Below, in pieces: positions 10,106 to 30,033 of a DNA stretch of 37,294 bases. The stretch covers positions 1 to 37,294 of the forward strand of contig CANNKG010000031.1 in NCBI GenBank assembly GCA_947505105.1, in the 5' to 3' direction. Numbering within the stretch: the first letter of the stretch is position 1; each line of letters starts with the position of its first letter. A model generated the notes under the pieces. That model did no database searches, was not told the origin of the DNA, and was given only the letters and a program-made list of their open reading frames with translations. This DNA comes from Methylococcaceae bacterium (GTDB lineage Bacteria > Pseudomonadota > Gammaproteobacteria > Methylococcales > Methylomonadaceae). Made by a program: the position numbers and the translations under genes.

Positions 10106-11239
10106 TTACGTCAATAAAGTACGTTCGATTAACCAATAACCACCAGCAAGACAAGCCATTACTGAGCATACCGGGGTCAATCTTGGCTCAATTAATGGTT
10201 TGGTATGCAGCCACCAAATCAAAGGCAAGACAATTGCAGCCACCGTAATTTGCCCCAATTCAACCCCTAGGTTAAATGAAAATAACGGCATAAAAATATC
10301 CGTACCATTCGTTGAAATACCCATTTCGCGCAGCACGCTCGCAAAACCAAAGCCATGAATCAAACCAAAGAAAAAAGTCAGCATGCCTCGCCCTTTCGGA
10401 TGCCCCTTACGCACAATATTTTCCAATCCAACATAGATAATGGTCGCAGCAATCAAAGGTTCGACAATTGAACTGGGAAGCTCAATCAGATTAAGACTCG
10501 CAAACGCGAGCGTAATCGAGTGCGCGACCGTAAAGAAGGTGATGACTTTCAAAGCGGGCCAAAAGCTATGAGTAATCACCAACAGTGAAAACAAAAACAG
10601 CAAATGGTCGTAGCCCGTCAGGATATGTTCGATGCCTAATTTTAAGAAATCAACAAAGCTTGCCGAATGCGTTGTTGCAGTGAAATTTTCAGAGCTTTCC
10701 TTGTCGGCTACCGTCACATCCTGAATAATTTGACTATCTTGCTGCGTCAGCATTTTTTCCCCAATCAAATGACCGGTCAGATCTTTAAAGGTGACAAAAT
10801 GGCGATGCCCCGTTGAAAACTTATGTAGAAATTCGGCGTTAATCACCACTGGCGCGTTGATATCAGTGAGGTATTGAAACTCGAGATGAGCATTATTTTG
10901 ATCATCGAATTCAACAGTACCGGGGTTTGCAGGGGTAATCACCACCTGATTAATACTTAACCGAAACTCATGCGCAATCAGTTCGGCGATTTTAGGTTTA
11001 GCGGTGGCCATTTCAGCGGCAGTCACTTCGGCATCCTGATCGCTATCCATTGGCACAAAGGCCTCAATATCTTGAATCGAAAAAGTCAGTTTTGCATCTA
11101 AACCCTTAGCATTCAATGCCAATTCAGCCGAACTCAATCCAGGTGGATGCGCATTAACAATACCCCAACCGAATATTAACAACAGCATTAGTAGCAACTT
11201 ATTTATCGTATTAACCTTAATTTCACGCGCGAAAAACAT
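10106..11239 (-). CDS. HupE/UreJ-family membrane protein with periplasmic N-terminal domain
   Basis: 377 residues. A signal sequence (to about residue 30, NA-HPPG) would leave a mature N-terminal histidine. A ~170-residue periplasmic domain follows, then a six-helix HupE/UreJ_2 membrane domain (about 195-375). Its signature blocks are LGIEHILTGYDHLLFLFSLL, FFTVAHSITLAFA, FFFGLIHGFGFA and FSFNLGVELGQ, with membrane-embedded His and Asp residues typical of metal permeases. Residues 65-76 (DSDQDAEVTAAE) fit an EF-hand calcium loop except Ala at position 6. The start codon lies 3 bases after the upstream stop (TAATGAATG). It is the last gene of the copper-associated cluster. The family is usually linked to nickel or other metals; the substrate here is not known. 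Confidence 0.85.
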   Translation of the reverse strand: MFFAREIKVNTINKLLLMLLLIFGWGIVNAHPPGLSSAELALNAKGLDAKLTFSIQDIEAFVPMDSDQDAEVTAAEMATAKPKIAELIAHEFRLSINQVVITPANPGTVEFDDQNNAHLEFQYLTDINAPVVINAEFLHKFSTGHRHFVTFKDLTGHLIGEKMLTQQDSQIIQDVTVADKESSENFTATTHSASFVDFLKLGIEHILTGYDHLLFLFSLLVITHSFWPALKVITFFTVAHSITLAFASLNLIELPSSIVEPLIAATIIYVGLENIVRKGHPKGRGMLTFFFGLIHGFGFASVLREMGISTNGTDIFMPLFSFNLGVELGQITVAAIVLPLIWWLHTKPLIEPRLTPVCSVMACLAGGYWLIERTLLT

Positions 11240-11242
11240 TCA

Positions 11243-11929
11243 TTATGCTCCCGCATCGTTCATTAATTGTTTAGCTTTGCGCTTTTTCACCATCACATAG
11301 CCAATGCCACCCACAACCAGCAATATAATCAAACCTGCGCCGAGATAGATCAACATTTGGGGCGACAAGGCCAATGGGTTACTACCCACATGAAACAGTA
11401 CTTTCAGCTTGTCATCTTCAGCCAGCGCCTCTTCACCGCCAATGATCAGAATCATCGCATAATCGCCATTTTTGGTTAGATCTGCCTGCGCTTCGACTAC
11501 GCCACGCGGATAAGCCTGAGCTGCGACTTCGGCAATCGTTTTAACTTCTTTATAACTCTCAATTTTCGTCGGATCGCTGCCGGTTTTTTCAAGCTCGACG
11601 ATTTTGACCCCCACCGGCGTTTGTCTGACATCGCGATCAATCAAATCGGCACTGAAAAACAATTTGCCGGGTTTTGGAATTTCCTGGCAATACGGCTGCA
11701 ACAGCGCCTCTCGTTCGCTTTCTTTCATCTCCTGGATATTTTGGGTCGGTTTTAAATAGGCGCTGAAATGCACCGCATAAAAATCATTGGCGATTAGACA
11801 GCCGACGCTATTGAGATCTTGAATTTGGGGCGGTTTGCTCCGGTCTGGTAATTTGTCACATGCCGTTAAAGCAAGGCATAAAGTTAAAACCGACCAGAGG
11901 CTATTAATAGAAAAATACTTGCTAGACAT
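11243..11929 (-). CDS. Lipoprotein with C-terminal membrane anchor, function unknown
   Basis: 228 residues. The N-terminal signal ends in a lipobox (LTAC, C24). A ~165-residue extracytoplasmic domain with three further cysteines (C44, C81 area) follows. A C-terminal transmembrane helix (about 194-212) ends with a positively charged tail, VKKRKAKQ. A lipid anchor plus a C-terminal helix is unusual. I do not recognise the domain. It lies between copC and the hupE-like gene, with the latter starting 3 bases after its stop, so the two are surely co-translated. No good ribosome site precedes the ATG. Confidence 0.75.
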   Translation of the reverse strand: MSSKYFSINSLWSVLTLCLALTACDKLPDRSKPPQIQDLNSVGCLIANDFYAVHFSAYLKPTQNIQEMKESEREALLQPYCQEIPKPGKLFFSADLIDRDVRQTPVGVKIVELEKTGSDPTKIESYKEVKTIAEVAAQAYPRGVVEAQADLTKNGDYAMILIIGGEEALAEDDKLKVLFHVGSNPLALSPQMLIYLGAGLIILLVVGGIGYVMVKKRKAKQLMNDAGA

Positions 11930-11982
11930 GAGGATATCTTGGTGAGTAGTGGAAATTAGACCGGAGAGAAAAACTTCAAACC

Positions 11983-12375
11983 TTAAGGCGCTTTAACGGT
12001 AAATTGAAATTTACCGGTGACGATGTGAGTATCAATCGACACCACCCGATAACGAACCGTGTACGTTCCGGGTGACAAAGGCTGAACTGTCGCAAATAAA
12101 TGCGATTCGTCAAACGTTTCTTGTTGGGCATCTTTGTTATCCACCCGTTGTCCTTTGCTGTCAACAACCGCTAACGCTTTATATTCGCTACCGACTTTGT
12201 CGTTAAACCAAACGTCAACTTGTTTGGGCGATTCGGTTAAGACCGCATCTTTTTCCGGCGCCGATCTGACCATAATCGCATGCGCCATAACGGGTAATGG
12301 CGTTAAAGCAGTCAATAAAAGCACAATACCGGCACCGAAAAATTGAGAACGAAAGAAATTAATATTGTGAGTCAT
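11983..12375 (-). CDS. copC: CopC-domain periplasmic copper-binding protein
   Basis: 130 residues: a signal peptide to residue 31 (LPVMA) and a mature CopC/YobA beta-barrel domain of 99 residues. Cleavage gives an N-terminal histidine (H32), and the later VVSIDTHIV segment supplies D115 and H117. In mature numbering these are H1, D84 and H86, matching the Cu(II)-binding brace of CopC proteins. The Met-rich Cu(I) site of Pseudomonas CopC is absent, so this is probably a Cu(II)-only form. No copD follows; instead the lipoprotein and HupE-like genes do. It probably has a role in periplasmic copper handling. Confidence 0.88.
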   Translation of the reverse strand: MTHNINFFRSQFFGAGIVLLLTALTPLPVMAHAIMVRSAPEKDAVLTESPKQVDVWFNDKVGSEYKALAVVDSKGQRVDNKDAQQETFDESHLFATVQPLSPGTYTVRYRVVSIDTHIVTGKFQFTVKAP

Positions 12376-12468
12376 AGTCTTTGAGTTGAATATCCATTAA
12401 CGAGGGTCGCATTATATTACTGAATCAATCGCAAAGTGCGCAAATCTTGCGCAATCTCACCAAAAGCG

Positions 12469-13713
12469 TCATCTTGATTCAAGCAGCAGCATTGACCATT
12501 GAAGGGGCTGTTTAAAAGGCTGCTCGGTCCACAACAGTAATAGACCTTCTGACGTTTTAATGGCTCGTGGATGACTAGCCACTTCATCGGTCTTGGATAG
12601 CGAAATCGGTGCTGTCCAGGTTGTCCCGGCATTATCGGAGCGCGCATAAACAATATAAGATCCATCAGAGCCCATTTCGTCCCAAATCGCGACTAAATGC
12701 TGAGCATCAATTGCTGCAATGTCACCATGCTGTGCATTATTGCCGAATTTTTTCGGTACGCTCCAGCTAACGCCGTTATTTTTCGAACCTAGGTAATAAA
12801 GACCCTGTTGTTTTTCAAGACCGGTCCAAACCACACTGTGTAAAACATTTGTCTGACTTTCTGCAAGGCCGCCACCAATATGCGGACACCCTTCGAAACG
12901 CCAATTAAACGCGCCAACCGTGCTAACACGATGCCAGTTCGCCCCTTGATCCTTAGATTGAATCAAACCCATATCACGCGGCTCCATATCTCGATACAAG
13001 AGATTAAGTTCCCCTGAATCCAAGGAGATCAAACGATTCCAACAGCAAGAACAGGTTGAGTCATCGAGAGTACTAGCCTTTTCCCAATGCGCCCCACCGT
13101 CCAGTGATCTGGCGTAACGGACACTCTGAAAGCCATGCTCTTCCGGATCCTCCAACCACACCACATGAAAATTGCCCTGTTGATCGGCGACAAGATCCAG
13201 ATGCGCTTGATCGCCGGCATTGTTAGCAGCAGGATTCTGACTGATCAACCAGGTTTTACCCGCATCGCTGGAATAAACACCGGTCAAAGGTCCTTGATGC
13301 GGAAATTCACCGCTGGTTTGCCACAGAATGACCAGATGCTCACCCGAAGCGGCAATTTGAATATCGTTACCTCTTGAGGCAATCGGTGCCAGCGCGCCAT
13401 GACCAATCGGGACGGGCTTCAACCAATGCCGCCCTCCGTCTTCAGAACGAAGATAATAGACCGAAAGCGCGCCGCCTTTTTTCACATTACCCGCAATCAC
13501 GGCATGGACGAATTGCTTATCCACAGCAATATCAAACGATTTAATATCCGCCAGACCGAGCGCCGCTTTTGGATAAAATCGGTTTTTAGGCATCGTCTCA
13601 TCAAGGACCGTTGTTTGATATAAAGCCGGATCATGCGCGCATCCTGTCAATACCAATAACGCAAGTATCAACGCGCCACCGAAACCTGTAGTCGAAATTC
13701 TAAATTGAGACAT
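12469..13713 (-). CDS. Sialidase-fold (BNR/Asp-box) lipoprotein
   Basis: 414 residues with a lipoprotein signal (LTGC, C25). Six Asp boxes are visible: SEDGGRHW (90-97), SSDAGKTW (148-155), SLDGGAHW (203-210), SKDQGANW (253-260), SKNNGVSW (310-317, Asp replaced by Asn) and SDNAGTTW (359-366), giving a six-bladed propeller. A cysteine cluster CSCC at 221-224 and a CPH at 276-278 sit between blades. The catalytic Arg triad of true sialidases is not evident, so enzymatic sialidase activity is doubtful. Placement directly upstream of copC suggests a surface protein involved in metal handling; this is inference. Confidence 0.8.
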   Translation of the reverse strand: MSQFRISTTGFGGALILALLVLTGCAHDPALYQTTVLDETMPKNRFYPKAALGLADIKSFDIAVDKQFVHAVIAGNVKKGGALSVYYLRSEDGGRHWLKPVPIGHGALAPIASRGNDIQIAASGEHLVILWQTSGEFPHQGPLTGVYSSDAGKTWLISQNPAANNAGDQAHLDLVADQQGNFHVVWLEDPEEHGFQSVRYARSLDGGAHWEKASTLDDSTCSCCWNRLISLDSGELNLLYRDMEPRDMGLIQSKDQGANWHRVSTVGAFNWRFEGCPHIGGGLAESQTNVLHSVVWTGLEKQQGLYYLGSKNNGVSWSVPKKFGNNAQHGDIAAIDAQHLVAIWDEMGSDGSYIVYARSDNAGTTWTAPISLSKTDEVASHPRAIKTSEGLLLLWTEQPFKQPLQWSMLLLESR

Positions 13714-25640: not shown

Positions 25641-27545
25641 TCACTGCCGACTATCGCCAATCGGCGCCGCAAAGGCATCCGCCACTAAGGCTTTGACGTT
25701 GCTACCCGTCAGGCTGCTCAAGAAGTCAATCAAGTCGGCAATTTCCTGCGGCTTTAACCCCAAAGGTCTGATCAATGGATCGAGGTTTTCATTGGCAAAA
25801 CCACCCTGATTGTAAAACTGCACCACTTCTTCCAAAGTTGCCAACGAGCCATTATGCATGTAGGGCGCAGTCAGGCTGACGTTTCTGAGTGATGGCGTTT
25901 TATATTGCCAGCGATGCGCCGGATTTTGGGTGACTTCATAGTAGCCCAAATCGTTGGCTTTGGTTTCGGCGACCGACTGAATCAGTTCTTGTTTGATATC
26001 GACAAACACGCCCGGTGCGACCTGAACTTTACGCGCAGTCGGGGTTTTGTGCATCGATTGTTGATAGCCGATACCGGTATTGTGCAACTGCTGATCGGTG
26101 AATAAGGCTTGATCGGTGCCGATTTGATGACAATTCGTACAATTTGCCTTGCCACGAAATAATTCAAAGCCACGCTGCGCTGATGGCGTCAGCGCATCTG
26201 CCTCTTTGCCGAAATACCAGCGATCAAACGCTGAATCGGCAGAATTCAGCGCTCGTTCGTAACTTGCCAGCGCCATGCCGATAGTTTCCATCGTGGCTGG
26301 CTTGTCAAAAGCGTGTTCAAATAAGCCCTGATAATCGGGTTGCTGTTTAAGCTTGGCGATGACTTGTCCAATTGAGGGATTAGCCATTTCATTGGCCGCC
26401 AGTAACGGCCCCCACACTTGCTGTTCAAGCGTCGTTTCGCGCCCGTCATGAAACAGTTTTTGCGCAAAACCGACATTGTAGATCGTCGGAGCATTGCGCC
26501 GCACCGTTCGGCCCTCGATGCCGACCGAGGTCGCCATTTCGTTGCTGGTGAAACCTTGTTCAGGCACATGGCACATCGCGCATGAAAACGTGTTATTTAA
26601 AGACAAGCGCCGATCGTAAAACAATTTGCGTCCGAGCTGAATTTTGGCGTCGGTCAAGGGATTTTCCTCCGGCGTTGGCACCGGCGGCAAACCGAGTTGT
26701 GGGCGTTGCGCTTCTTGCAATAAATCCAGCGCCTGTCCCTTGCGATCAAGCAGCGCGATTGAATGGGTTTGATAGTCGGCTGAGGCATAGTTGGTTTTGT
26801 TGTCACCTGCCTGGTAAAGCTCGGCACTATTCAGCGCAGGACGAAGCGTTTCGGGCGTTTTTGAGGCATTCAGCAAGACGGTTTTTAAATCATTGATCAA
26901 GGTATCGGGATGCAGGAAAGTCACGCTGTAGATATTGCGAATTTGCTGCTGGCTGTCGATCAAGTAGACGCGCAGATCGTGATTGAAAGTGCCAGTGAAT
27001 TTACCCTCAGCGTCATAGACCTTCTGAATGTTCTGCGGGTAACGCGCCAGAATCGGCTCTAGTTCTTGTTCCGATTGCGTGGTTAAAAATTGCCAATCAA
27101 TTCCGTCGCCTTGCAGATTCTCGCCATAGACCCGCATACGTTCGGGCGTGTCGTGCTCGGGATTAAAGCTCAGGGTTAGTAAGCGCAATTGCTTTTGCAA
27201 TTCGGGCTCTTTAGCCAAACGCGCTTTTATTTTATGCAATACCATCGTTGCCAGCGGACAACCGTTGACATCACTACACGCCGAATAGATAAAACTTAGT
27301 AAAACAACTTTGCCGCGATAGAGTTGATGCAAAGTGGTACGCTGAGCATCGCTGGTCAGCACCGTACCGTCTCCGGCTTGGCCCAATACCGGCAAGGCAT
27401 AGCTGCCGGGGATGGGTGGCTGAAATTGCAGATTTTGATAGGCAGGCGCTAACTCAGGCGTGGCTTGTTGTTCCGCAAGCGCATTGATCGTGCAAATGCT
27501 TATTACAACGCTGAATATTATCTGCGTGAGCCTATGGGTCTGCAT
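25641..27545 (-). CDS. Fused SCO1-like copper chaperone / di-heme cytochrome c peroxidase (MauG-like)
   Basis: 634 residues: a signal peptide (1-24), then a SCO1/SenC thioredoxin-fold domain (about 45-225) and a di-heme CcpA/MauG domain (about 290-620). The SCO part has C90 and C96 (C-X5-C, longer than the usual C-X3-C) and the conserved H189 in FNHDLRVYLID. Heme sites are CAMCH (322-326) and CTNCH (469-473); APYMHNGS (561-568) supplies the Met common in peroxidases, where MauG has Tyr. Homologous separate genes accompany mtoX in other bacteria and are thought to mature or copper-load it. It follows mtoX after a stem-loop. Confidence 0.9.
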   Translation of the reverse strand: MQTHRLTQIIFSVVISICTINALAEQQATPELAPAYQNLQFQPPIPGSYALPVLGQAGDGTVLTSDAQRTTLHQLYRGKVVLLSFIYSACSDVNGCPLATMVLHKIKARLAKEPELQKQLRLLTLSFNPEHDTPERMRVYGENLQGDGIDWQFLTTQSEQELEPILARYPQNIQKVYDAEGKFTGTFNHDLRVYLIDSQQQIRNIYSVTFLHPDTLINDLKTVLLNASKTPETLRPALNSAELYQAGDNKTNYASADYQTHSIALLDRKGQALDLLQEAQRPQLGLPPVPTPEENPLTDAKIQLGRKLFYDRRLSLNNTFSCAMCHVPEQGFTSNEMATSVGIEGRTVRRNAPTIYNVGFAQKLFHDGRETTLEQQVWGPLLAANEMANPSIGQVIAKLKQQPDYQGLFEHAFDKPATMETIGMALASYERALNSADSAFDRWYFGKEADALTPSAQRGFELFRGKANCTNCHQIGTDQALFTDQQLHNTGIGYQQSMHKTPTARKVQVAPGVFVDIKQELIQSVAETKANDLGYYEVTQNPAHRWQYKTPSLRNVSLTAPYMHNGSLATLEEVVQFYNQGGFANENLDPLIRPLGLKPQEIADLIDFLSSLTGSNVKALVADAFAAPIGDSRQ

Positions 27546-27621: not shown

Positions 27622-29013
27622 CTACGGTTTTATAGCTGGTGGTGCGGCTTCACTTTTCGCGACATCATTTTTGACCGTATACAAGGAATACGCGCCAAAA
27701 CGCATTTGATGCGCTCGACCTAATTTTTCTTTAGTAAAGTCGATCGCGAATTGCTCTTTCAGTTTTTTGCCGTCCCAGGAATACGCTTTCAGGAATTGCT
27801 CATTATCCTGATTCTTCTTATCCCAATTCGCGAGCAACGATGAGGTGTAATACAGACGTTTGCCATCCCAACTTGAGGACACCATATTTAACTGTGCTCC
27901 GATTTTTTGCTCCATCACCTGTTTAGGTTTGAATGGATCGGTGATATCAAACGCGCGCGTTTTGCCGTCCATAAAGGTATTCACCCAGAGCATTTTGTCG
28001 TTACTTGAGATGGAAATATCCACCGGCAACGGGATTTTGCTTGGATCACCGATATCGGCGACTTCTTTGGCCTGCCAACCATTGTCTTTATCTTCGTAGA
28101 TCAACCAGATTTTGGAGGTCAATGCGGTGGTCGTGAAACAGTAATTGTGACTAGGGTCCCAGGCACAACGGATTTCAAGCGGCGCACCCGGCACGTCGAA
28201 AATCTTTTTCGGCTGTTTGGTATGTAAATCCCATTGCACGACGGTATTACCGAAACGCTTCATGGCTTCAGGATCGGCGAGCATTTTGCCGAAATCCATC
28301 ATATAGTTTGACCAGCCGGTAAACGCGGTGGTCAACATCAGGTTGCGCCGTGGCAGTACCCGAACATCGTAGCCGTAGCCATCGGCATATTTGCCGGTTT
28401 TAACTGCGCCACGCAAATCAGTATCAGTCGGCATCCAATGCGTTGCAACATATTCGCCTGCGTTGGTATATTCAACCAAGGCAGTCCGGCCACCGTGATC
28501 TTTATTATTGGACAATCCGGTAATCATGATCCGACCCGGCAAAGCGTAGGTAGAGTGCGGACCAACTACACCACCACTTTTATCGACAAAATCAGTAATC
28601 GTTTTGACCAACGTCGGTTTGGATGGATTGGTATGGACATCAAAGATAAATATTTTGTTGGTATCAAGGCCACCCGCCCATAAAAACTTACGATCATCGG
28701 TGAAATCGGAGTGATGCGCCTCGTTGCGGCCGCCAACCGATAAGGTATTGATCACCTTGCCGTATCGCGGTGATTTGGGATTCACATCGACCGTTACCAG
28801 TTTATCTTGTTCATCGCCCAAGCCTTCGACACCGAGTGTCCAGACATAAACAAAATCTTCCTGACCGGTAATCTTAGCCATGTAAGGTGATGCACACGTT
28901 TCATCGGCTTGGGCGTCGATGGTCATACCAAAACCCAAGGCCAGCGTGGAACAGGCGACCAGACTGGTTTTAAGTAATGTCTGCATGAAATTATTATTCT
29001 TGAGTTTGCTCAT
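27622..29013 (-). CDS. mtoX: Methanethiol oxidase (SBP56 family), periplasmic
   Basis: 463 residues from the ATG at 29013: a signal peptide (about 1-37, AQA-DETC) and a selenium-binding-protein-56 beta-propeller. Family blocks include RNEAHHSDFTDDRKFLWAGGLD, GPHSTYALPGRIMITG, VRVLPRRNLMLTTAFTGW, NMVSSSWDGKRLYYTSSLL and GRAHQMRFGAYSLY. The family enzyme oxidises methanethiol to formaldehyde, H2S and H2O2 and needs copper. The open frame extends to an in-frame ATG at 29073, but that 20-residue extension is unlike a signal peptide; AGAAGG precedes the chosen ATG. Neighbours DUF4242 (upstream) and SCO-MauG (downstream) fit an mto operon. Confidence 0.92.
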   Translation of the reverse strand: MSKLKNNNFMQTLLKTSLVACSTLALGFGMTIDAQADETCASPYMAKITGQEDFVYVWTLGVEGLGDEQDKLVTVDVNPKSPRYGKVINTLSVGGRNEAHHSDFTDDRKFLWAGGLDTNKIFIFDVHTNPSKPTLVKTITDFVDKSGGVVGPHSTYALPGRIMITGLSNNKDHGGRTALVEYTNAGEYVATHWMPTDTDLRGAVKTGKYADGYGYDVRVLPRRNLMLTTAFTGWSNYMMDFGKMLADPEAMKRFGNTVVQWDLHTKQPKKIFDVPGAPLEIRCAWDPSHNYCFTTTALTSKIWLIYEDKDNGWQAKEVADIGDPSKIPLPVDISISSNDKMLWVNTFMDGKTRAFDITDPFKPKQVMEQKIGAQLNMVSSSWDGKRLYYTSSLLANWDKKNQDNEQFLKAYSWDGKKLKEQFAIDFTKEKLGRAHQMRFGAYSLYTVKNDVAKSEAAPPAIKP

Positions 29014-29091
29014 ATCCTTCTCTCTTTTTAATTGTGGGGGTGAAACAACATGGTGCACGGGGTAGTTATGCAATAACTCCTTGAATTAAGC

Positions 29092-29364
29092 TTATTCAGC
29101 TCGGGTAGGATCGATAATGGTTTTCACCTGTTCGATACGATTGGCCGGAAAGCCACCTTGCTCAGCATGTTCTCGAATCGTCTCAGCATCGGGTGCCAAA
29201 TACAGGCAATAAATTTTGTTGTCGGTGACAAAACTTTCGAGCCATTGGATCTGTGGCCCCATCGCCTGTAAGATGCTACAGGACTTTTGTGAAATGGCTT
29301 GTAATTCTTCGGCACTTAATGCGCCAGCCCCTGGAATTTCGCGTTCAATAATAAATTTTGGCAT
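29092..29364 (-). CDS. DUF4242 family small protein
   Basis: 90 residues, no signal peptide. MPKFIIEREIPGAGALSAEELQAISQKSC, QIQWLESFVTDNKIYCLYLAPDAETIREHAEQGGFPANRIEQV and the ending DPTRAE match the DUF4242 (SCO4226-like ferredoxin-fold) family; a Streptomyces member binds nickel. Two cysteines (C29, C53) are present. It precedes mtoX by 78 bases on the same strand and has an operator-like site directly upstream, so it is probably the first gene of the mtoX transcript. Its role there is unknown. Confidence 0.82.
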   Translation of the reverse strand: MPKFIIEREIPGAGALSAEELQAISQKSCSILQAMGPQIQWLESFVTDNKIYCLYLAPDAETIREHAEQGGFPANRIEQVKTIIDPTRAE

Positions 29365-29379
29365 GTTTGACTCCTATAA

Positions 29380-29397
29380 TATATGACCGGTCGTCTT
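29380..29397. promoter_or_regulatory. Probable TetR operator upstream of the DUF4242-mtoX genes
   Basis: TATATGACCGGTCGTCTT, with the perfect core palindrome GACCGGTC at 29385-29392. It differs by one base from the site at 30016-30033, in front of tetR. Its centre lies about 25 bases from the DUF4242 start, where a repressor would block transcription. Confidence 0.75.
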
Positions 29398-29413: not shown

Positions 29414-30007
29414 TTAGACGGTAAAATAATCGTCCAATAAATCCTCAATACACTCCTTCACGGGAGCAATCGATTGTTCGATTTTCATTCGTAGCAATGC
29501 GCCCTGCCAGCTATTTGCCAGCAAATCCGCCATGCGCCTCGCGGATCTATCGGTACGCACGCTGCCTTGTTGCTGGGCTTTGGCCAGCCCCACTTCAAGA
29601 AGATCTCGATAACGCTGCACAGCAGTTTTCAGGGCGATACGACAAACATCGCTAGTATCACCGATTTCACCCATTAAATTGCCTAACAAACAACCACCTT
29701 TAAAATCGCCTTGTTCCAGTTCCGCAATTAACTCGGCGAAATATAATCTTAAAGCGCTTAGGGCATCCAAGTTTGGATTGTTCAGATGCCCGGCCAAATG
29801 GTTAATAAATGGTTCGATGTAGTGATTGACCACTTCCGCCCCAAAGGCTTCCTTGCTGCCAAAGTAGTTATAAAATGACCCTTTGGGAATTTGGACAGTA
29901 TCCAAAATTTTTTTCAGACCCGTACCGTGATAGCCCTGCTCCATCAGCAAGCTAACGCCCTGATCGAGCAATTGTTCGCGTTTAATTTGTTTAGCTAATG
30001 TTGCCAT
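29414..30007 (-). CDS. TetR family transcriptional regulator
   Basis: 197 residues. The N-terminal helix-turn-helix is LLDQGVSLLMEQGYHGTGLKKILDTVQIPKGSFYNYFGSKEAFGAEVV (about 13-60). The C-terminal ligand domain has the KGGCLLGNLMGEIGD motif (about 102-116) with C105 in the position seen in NemR/AcuR-type thiol- or electrophile-sensing relatives, and a second cysteine C121. An operator-like site lies just upstream of its own start and a near-identical one before DUF4242-mtoX. It probably represses both and is relieved by a reactive sulfur or carbonyl compound (inference). Confidence 0.88.
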   Translation of the reverse strand: MATLAKQIKREQLLDQGVSLLMEQGYHGTGLKKILDTVQIPKGSFYNYFGSKEAFGAEVVNHYIEPFINHLAGHLNNPNLDALSALRLYFAELIAELEQGDFKGGCLLGNLMGEIGDTSDVCRIALKTAVQRYRDLLEVGLAKAQQQGSVRTDRSARRMADLLANSWQGALLRMKIEQSIAPVKECIEDLLDDYFTV

Positions 30008-30015
30008 GGAAAAAT

Positions 30016-30033
30016 TATATGACCAGTCGTCTT
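30016..30033. promoter_or_regulatory. Probable TetR autoregulatory operator
   Basis: TATATGACCAGTCGTCTT, 17 of 18 bases identical to the site at 29380-29397. It begins 9 bases upstream of the tetR ATG. Confidence 0.72.

Follow-up and report, generated by a model that had tools for sequence, protein, structure and literature searches.

Two residues of methanethiol oxidase appear to track separately the SCO and di-heme domains of a fused SCO1-MauG partner

Comparison of methanethiol oxidase (MtoX) sequences indicates that two residues of the enzyme track the two domains of its SCO1-MauG partner separately, Trp234 (W234) with the di-heme domain and Cys40 (C40) with the SCO domain. The partner is a fusion protein encoded in the window, a stretch of 37,294 nucleotides from a Methylococcaceae bacterium, which lies in contig C31 of a draft genome of 5.1 Mb. 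With a rough probability of 0.55, the fusion would serve as a periplasmic maturase of MtoX with two separable jobs, in which W234 would be acted on by the di-heme domain and C40, along with copper, by the SCO domain. MtoX catalyses a key step in organic sulfur cycling, and it has been asked since 2017 whether MtoX carries a Trp-derived cofactor and what role its SCO and MauG partners play. Of these results, the residue tracking most deserves pursuit: it leads to a direct test on a single peptide (W234) and a single cysteine (C40), for which natural MtoX proteins without one or both partners are ready-made controls.

Background

The fusion cannot be regarded as a novelty, as SCO1-MauG fusions beside mtoX have been published, and the window fusion does not differ from them in kind (PMC5739008, PMC6548844). 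Since the fusion and its maturation role were both published between 2017 and 2019, the core of the finding is already known; the maturation role, which was also put forward in the first-pass annotation, is plausible. What is added here is the clade of partner domains, the CX5CP motif, the co-occurrence of unlinked genes, and the separate tracking of the two domains by residues. MtoX is described as a copper enzyme in PMC5739008, where a SCO1/SenC protein is suggested to mature MTO, MTO is suggested to carry TTQ, and the TTQ tryptophans are stated to be conserved in all domains of life. Both fusion genes of Methylophaga thiooxydans are induced on dimethylsulfide, as are catalase and peroxiredoxin, and its periplasmic MTO was proposed to be processed by the fusion proteins (PMC6548844). 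In Ruegeria pomeroyi, Trp223 and Trp386 were chosen from a structure as the proposed TTQ pair, and the only cysteine of the enzyme, Cys28, binds methanethiol as Cys-S-S-CH3 and is indispensable for activity (PMC10936201). MtoX has also been reported to make H2O2.

The fusion protein and its locus

The reverse strand of 25641-27545 holds a single 634-aa frame from ATG to stop (Table 1). The proposal of the first-pass annotation that one polypeptide carries a SCO1/SenC and a MauG/CcP domain with specified residues is borne out by Pfam matches and by motifs at the claimed positions; its coordinates for the gene were also right, and the strand, which it did not state, is minus. Pfam places SCO1-SenC at aa 64-201 (57.6 bits, cut-off 22.8), CCP_MauG at aa 300-448 (190 bits, cut-off 25.6), and Cytochrom_C at aa 456-612 (32.7 bits, cut-off 21.3). 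The motifs start at residues 90 (CSDVNGC, with C90 and C96), 188 (NHDLRV, with H189), 322 (CAMCH), and 469 (CTNCH). C90, C96, H189, and the cysteines and histidines of the heme motifs are unchanged across 52 aligned fusion proteins. Judged by eye, the N-terminus resembles a Sec-type signal peptide. The predicted structure models have a mean pLDDT of 82.9 for the fusion and 91.9 for MtoX.

Both domains lie in one open frame in 23 of 31 genomes of relatives; 21 of these 23 give one match, and in the other two (G011 and G018) the single frame gives two matches. In G024 the SCO and di-heme domains are separated by a stop. As the single frame recurs in relatives, the fusion is not an assembly error, a reading that the first-pass annotation had allowed for and that is thereby ruled out.

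The neighbouring gene is mtoX according to NCBIfam NF052453 (781 bits, cut-off 650). The order on the minus strand is TetR-family regulator, SCO4226-like gene, mtoX, and fusion, the last being directly downstream of mtoX and reading through the SCO and then the di-heme domain in one frame. A near relative of the SCO4226-like gene precedes mtoX in locus L188 (6441-6716), which belongs to a genome of the family f6 without the fusion. The near-identical 17-base AGACGACYGGTCATATA is present at two sites in the window, and at least two sites were obtained in 1 of 100 shuffles; it may be the operator of the TetR-family regulator. We also note that CopC-domain, HupE/UreJ, and BNR-repeat genes are grouped at 10106-13713 (minus strand), ~14 kb from the fusion, and are possibly copper-related.

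Table 1. Coordinates of the features in the window
Feature	Position	Strand	Basis or remark
SCO1-MauG fusion gene, 634 aa	25641..27545	minus	ORF, Pfam, NCBIfam, motif positions
SCO1/SenC domain, aa 64-201, C90-X5-C96-P and H189	26943..27356	minus	Pfam, motif alignment
Di-heme domain, aa 300-618: CAMCH 322-326, CTNCH 469-473, Y578 on MauG Y294	25692..26648	minus	
mtoX, 463 aa from ATG at 29013 (TTG at 29073 gives 483 aa)	27622..29013	minus	NF052453
Codon of MtoX W397 (Trp386 of R. pomeroyi MTO)	27823..27825	minus	other published TTQ candidate
Codon of MtoX M239	28297..28299	minus	Arg in 22/27 MauG-less MtoX
Codon of MtoX W234 (Trp223 of R. pomeroyi MTO)	28312..28314	minus	proposed di-heme target
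Codon of MtoX C40 (Cys28 of R. pomeroyi MTO)	28894..28896	minus	kept wherever SCO was found
SCO4226-like (PF14026) gene, 90 aa, between regulator and mtoX	29092..29364	minus	
AGACGACCGGTCATATA, candidate operator upstream of PF14026-mtoX genes	29380..29396	minus	
TetR-family regulator	29414..30007	minus	top NCBIfam match AcuR, 148.6 bits, cut-off 247
AGACGACTGGTCATATA, same candidate operator upstream of regulator	30016..30032	minus	

Distribution of the fusion and its link to mtoX

One scan across named genome contigs gave 192 stretches coding for a relative, the best 80 of which were kept; the nearest named relatives of the fusion among these are Methylococcaceae and Methylobacter records. 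The SCO domain was readable in 76 of the best 80, comprising 53 fused genes with mtoX in the locus, 15 fused genes with no mtoX in the fetched stretch (several of which are short contigs), and 8 cases of separate genes with mtoX. This sample is tilted towards fusions because the query was a fusion. Separate SCO and di-heme genes were seen, among the best 80 of the 192, in Rhodobacterales (e.g., Sedimentitalea and Actibacterium) and Cycloclasticus. Some loci have SCO beside mtoX and no di-heme partner (e.g., Skermanella and Microvirga), and a di-heme gene is present and SCO absent in locus L166.

A search of 151 Methylococcales genomes gave mtoX in 113 at E up to 1e-100 and the partner in 101 at E up to 1e-88. 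Both genes are present in 99 genomes, mtoX only in 14, the partner only in 2, and neither in 36, the last count being obtained by subtraction with both order-level searches taken as the same 151-genome draw. The Fisher p for this co-occurrence is 6e-21, uncorrected for kinship. The tie between fusion and mtoX that had been claimed from the window is therefore upheld in this order, and the fear that the domain pair might be widespread without mtoX is not realized in Methylococcales, where two partner-bearing genomes lack mtoX. The two genes are both present or both absent even within genera; in genus g26, for example, G084, G090, and G132 have both, and G043, G047, G094, and G118 have neither. 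Ten of the 14 mtoX-only genomes belong to the one family f6, and the others are G026, in which the SCO part runs off the contig end, G037, and the fragmented assemblies G107 and G119. The mtoX of G037 has an in-frame stop (C1:545192-546097, L199) and the partner is also absent from this genome, a possible case of joint decay.

Of the 99 genomes with both genes, 56 have the partner directly downstream of mtoX and 7 have it 1.5-10 kb away. In 13 it shares the contig but is more than 10 kb distant, and in 23 the two genes are on different contigs, which leaves 36 of the 99 without a fusion gene at 10 kb or less from mtoX on one contig. An unlinked fusion might stand next to some other common target gene; in the ORF listing of three such loci (L225, L095, and L226), the neighbours on both sides of the fusion are on the opposite strand in at least L225 and L095. 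The co-occurrence despite distance and separate contigs makes the link between mtoX and the partner independent of adjacency.

MtoX residues that track the two domains

The equivalences with R. pomeroyi MTO in Table 1 were taken from the residue list of its coding sequence, in which the single Cys is residue 28 and, of the 12 Trp, the 4th is residue 223 and the 11th residue 386. Out of the 12 Trp in the window MtoX, W234 is the only one missing from all ten f6 MtoX (His in eight, Tyr in one, Arg in one), which are without both domains; the position is Trp in the 115 other MtoX of the same set. Counted over distinct MtoX frames of more than 300 aa, with the interrupted or truncated mtoX of G037 (L199) and G119 (L201) left out, position 234 is Trp in 126 of 126 MtoX with a di-heme partner. 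It is Phe, His, Lys, Leu, Gln, Arg, or Tyr in 18 of 27 MtoX without the partner and Trp in the other nine. Three rows are without a MauG label (L198, L237, and L204) and two without an SCO label. At position 239, 125 of the 126 partner-bearing MtoX have Met and 22 of the 27 partner-less ones have Arg; the Arg occurs also in some MauG-less MtoX that retain W234. C40 is Cys in all 138 readable MtoX with SCO, and the 11 readable MtoX without SCO have Pro (nine), Gly (one), or Cys (one, G107) at this position, one more being unreadable.

The two residues come apart where the two domains do. Skermanella provides a test case, as its mtoX neighbours include SCO and no di-heme gene: in the plasmid records examined of Microvirga and Skermanella, position 234 is replaced (Lys, Lys, Leu, and Phe) and C40 is retained. 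The reverse holds in L166, where W234 is retained and C40 is replaced by Gly. No partner-grade di-heme gene was found in the whole genomes G967, G1013, G1114, and G1122, which have Leu or Gln at 234.

Evidence against a dependence of W234 on the di-heme domain comes from the nine of 27 MauG-less MtoX that retain it. Seven of these belong to genomes of one clade (g449/g451) without a partner-clade di-heme gene; five of the seven have an MbnH-like paralog elsewhere, and G1128 and G997 have none. The remaining two are G881, with a CX3CP-type SCO, no di-heme match, and an interrupted mtoX in which W234 and C40 are present, and G107, in which neither domain was detected, yet both residues are retained.

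In the f6 MtoX (L188-L197), the residue at C40 is Pro in nine of ten and unreadable in one. The Cys at this site is the one reported to be catalytic in R. pomeroyi, and the f6 enzymes with Pro would test that claim.

Strength of the residue signal

The column statistics were derived from a tree of 102 thinned MtoX rows of at least 390 aa each. Of the 357 variable columns scanned, 234 takes first place: 7 of its 7 changes fall on MauG-less branches, whose share of the tree length is 21% (nominal p 2.1e-5). Column 239 ranks third with 6 of 7 changes on such branches, and C40, with two losses, has column rank 4 and a nominal p of 0.010. In MtoX with the partner, 113 columns reach a conservation of 99% or more. 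Of these, f6 has lost four and the Microvirga-Skermanella clade two; the two W-less clades have the loss of 234 alone in common, and the chance of such an overlap is 0.07.

The tracking might instead be clade drift, the change of an active-site loop and the loss of the partner being unconnected events in a few lineages. The independent losses are indeed few: the tree requires two W234 changes and four partner changes, which leaves an independent-pairs test powerless. When clade sets of comparable size were drawn at random, 32 of 400 draws yielded a column as extreme as 234, and W234 is kept by seven MauG-less MtoX of one clade. We consider drift unlikely, though deserving of serious weight, for the top column is one of the two cofactor residues that others proposed from a structure (PMC10936201), and seven other residues occur at 234 in MauG-less MtoX and none in the 126 with the partner. 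The weight of the signal at 234 and C40 is raised because others named the same residues on different grounds.

Alignment by hhalign with generic SBP56 pairs position 234 with the Pro of a TEWxxPN motif and F231 with its Trp, unlike MAFFT, which places that Trp at 234 for L266 and L267. W193, W261, and W397 pair with Trp in generic SBP56 (hhalign), and W397 is also Trp in MauG-less MtoX, so the retention of W397 is uninformative on TTQ. In the predicted MtoX model, W234 directly follows a strand and forms part of a short helix (mature residues 199-202). Such post-strand loops of a propeller share a face with the loops before the inner strands, the site of the copper histidines.

The SCO domain

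The fusion SCO does not have the canonical CX3C copper motif; its C90-X5-C96 is two residues longer than the motif of the aligned solved Sco proteins. CX5CP is present in 140 of 142 distinct partner SCO sequences, some of which share a genome, and the other two are one CX3CP (L180, beside an interrupted mtoX) and one truncated sequence. CX3CP occupies the same site in solved Sco proteins and also in a second SCO gene of the same genome (L008). H189 is the conserved distal His, which is invariant in the 52 fusions and aligns with the Sco His. A literature search for SenC with CX5C gave no paper.

Replacement of CX3CP by CX5CP would suit a role not as a copper chaperone but as a periplasmic thiol-disulfide reductase by which the catalytic Cys40 of MtoX is kept reduced. 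The losses of C40 where SCO was not found and the methanethiol adduct of Cys28 in R. pomeroyi MTO (PMC10936201) are in line with this function. It is nevertheless doubtful, if far from negligible: the domain retains H189, a His conserved among SCO proteins that bind copper, MtoX is a copper enzyme (PMC5739008), and the losses of C40 number only two.

The di-heme domain

The top NCBIfam match of the di-heme domain is MbnH (TIGR04039), at 246 bits and under the cut-off of 362.85; the TTQ_mauG model (TIGR03791) scores 186.6, under its cut-off of 443.85. The best solved relative is MbnH 6e1c, both by sequence and by fold. The match to MauG 3l4m ends at query 580 and chain 296 and thereby sets Y578, invariant in the 52 fusion proteins, on MauG Y294. 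Y294 is the heme ligand typical of MauG, and a tyrosine at this position is a MauG-type trait, not one of bacterial cytochrome c peroxidases. The mtoX-associated domain, with its two CXXCH hemes, thus scores higher with the MbnH model than with that of MauG, yet has the MauG-like tyrosine. No MbnP gene was seen beside the fusion, where the scanned neighbours were SBP56, TetR, PF14026, and part of the small neighbours.

A quick tree of 96 di-heme domains, made without bootstrap, included 33 chosen mtoX partners and that of the window. The partner domains form one set of 34 rows with an SH-aLRT of 97, and outside it lie the MbnH-like paralogs of f6 and g449, MbnH 6e1c, CcpA-type domains, and MauG-like rows below cut-off. 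None of 299 genomes has a match above the TTQ_mauG cut-off, which is why the MauG-like rows of the tree are all below it. The MbnH-like paralogs of the f6 and g449 genomes were considered as hidden partners and rejected on their position outside the partner clade; a distant substitute di-heme gene may be present in these genomes. Two Thiogranum records have a second di-heme domain after the fusion, 62% identical to the partner domain (L131 2333-3337; L167 8055-9140).

The product at W234 could be a kynurenine-type copper-site residue formed by MbnH/CorB-like chemistry, with W397 not cross-linked. The higher score of the MbnH model, the solved structure nearest to the domain, and the release of W234 and not of W397 in MauG-less MtoX point in this direction, as do the methanotroph proteins CorA and MopE, whose copper site contains a kynurenine and whose genes are transcribed together with that of a di-heme protein (PMC3912023). 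We judge this product rather improbable, as the MbnH cut-off was missed by the domain (246 of 362.85 bits), W397, being Trp also in MauG-less MtoX and generic SBP56, does not inform on the choice, and the role of CorB was itself inferred in PMC3912023. That the di-heme domain is a peroxidase which guards MtoX or the periplasm from the H2O2 of MtoX and modifies nothing, with SCO supplying copper, agrees with its CCP_MauG family, the reported H2O2 production, and the induction of catalase and peroxiredoxin on dimethylsulfide, but is quite improbable in view of the MauG-type tyrosine, the CcpA-type genes in the same genomes, and the tracking of W234 with the partner.

Proposed mechanism

MauG-type enzymes modify Trp residues of partner proteins. 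In the two-job maturation that we favour, the C-terminal MauG/MbnH-type di-heme domain would use peroxide, possibly H2O2 from MtoX, and oxidise Trp234 to a Trp-derived cofactor beside the copper site; a W234-W397 cross-link (TTQ) is slightly favoured over a kynurenine-type product. The N-terminal SCO domain, with its CX5C loop and conserved His, would act at Cys40 and the copper site, by copper loading or by holding Cys40 reduced. The domains, their conservation, the co-occurrence, and the tracking of domains by residues are observed; W234 and C40 as the actual targets, the step order, the product, and the peroxide source are what we infer.

R. pomeroyi MTO produced in E. coli from a plasmid carrying MTO alone was reported to be active and to make no H2O2 (PMC10936201), and human SELENBP1 from E. 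coli is a Cu-dependent methanethiol oxidase (PMC10362175). The essentiality of either domain is hence unsupported, and the cofactor, if it exists, serves to tune the chemistry and not to make it possible, or else the recombinant activities are partial. The first-pass annotation had also proposed that the fusion couples copper delivery and oxidation in one step. This is not supported, given the separate genes of Alphaproteobacteria and Cycloclasticus, the loci with SCO beside mtoX and no di-heme gene, L166 with the opposite arrangement, and the tracking of different domains by W234 and C40.

It is a long shot that the domains act on two separate MtoX residues of a shared active site, that the di-heme domain makes Trp234 a kynurenine-type cofactor and not TTQ, that the CX5C SCO is a Cys40 thiol reductase and no chaperone, and that the lineages which lost them have SELENBP1-like enzymes. 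If true, lineages that have lost one domain or the other would keep a stripped-down MtoX that lacks the cofactor, the cysteine, or both.

Comparison with known systems

MbnH 6e1c is the closest solved relative of the di-heme domain, yet lies outside the partner clade; unlike MbnH, the window domain falls under the family cut-off and has no MbnP among its scanned neighbours. With MauG of methylamine dehydrogenase it shares the two CXXCH hemes and the tyrosine aligned with Y294, whereas it is under the TTQ_mauG cut-off, is fused to SCO, and has a different substrate protein. The CorA/CorB and MopE/SACCP systems resemble the present one in combining a copper protein with a di-heme protein and in a modified Trp at the copper site (PMC3912023); their substrates, in contrast, are unrelated to MtoX.

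The operons of Hyphomicrobium sp. VS and R. pomeroyi (SPOA0269-0271) have the same gene order of mtoX, SCO, and di-heme, and the R. pomeroyi di-heme domain (L258) shares the partner clade with that of the window. They differ in having two genes where the window has one fused gene. The window differs from Methylophaga in the TetR-family regulator and PF14026 gene before mtoX, and none of the sulfide-oxidation genes described in Methylophaga was seen beside the window fusion. The M. thiooxydans fusions are like that of the window in having the two domains in one polypeptide, in lying directly downstream of mtoX, and in the same proposed role in MtoX maturation (PMC5739008, PMC6548844).
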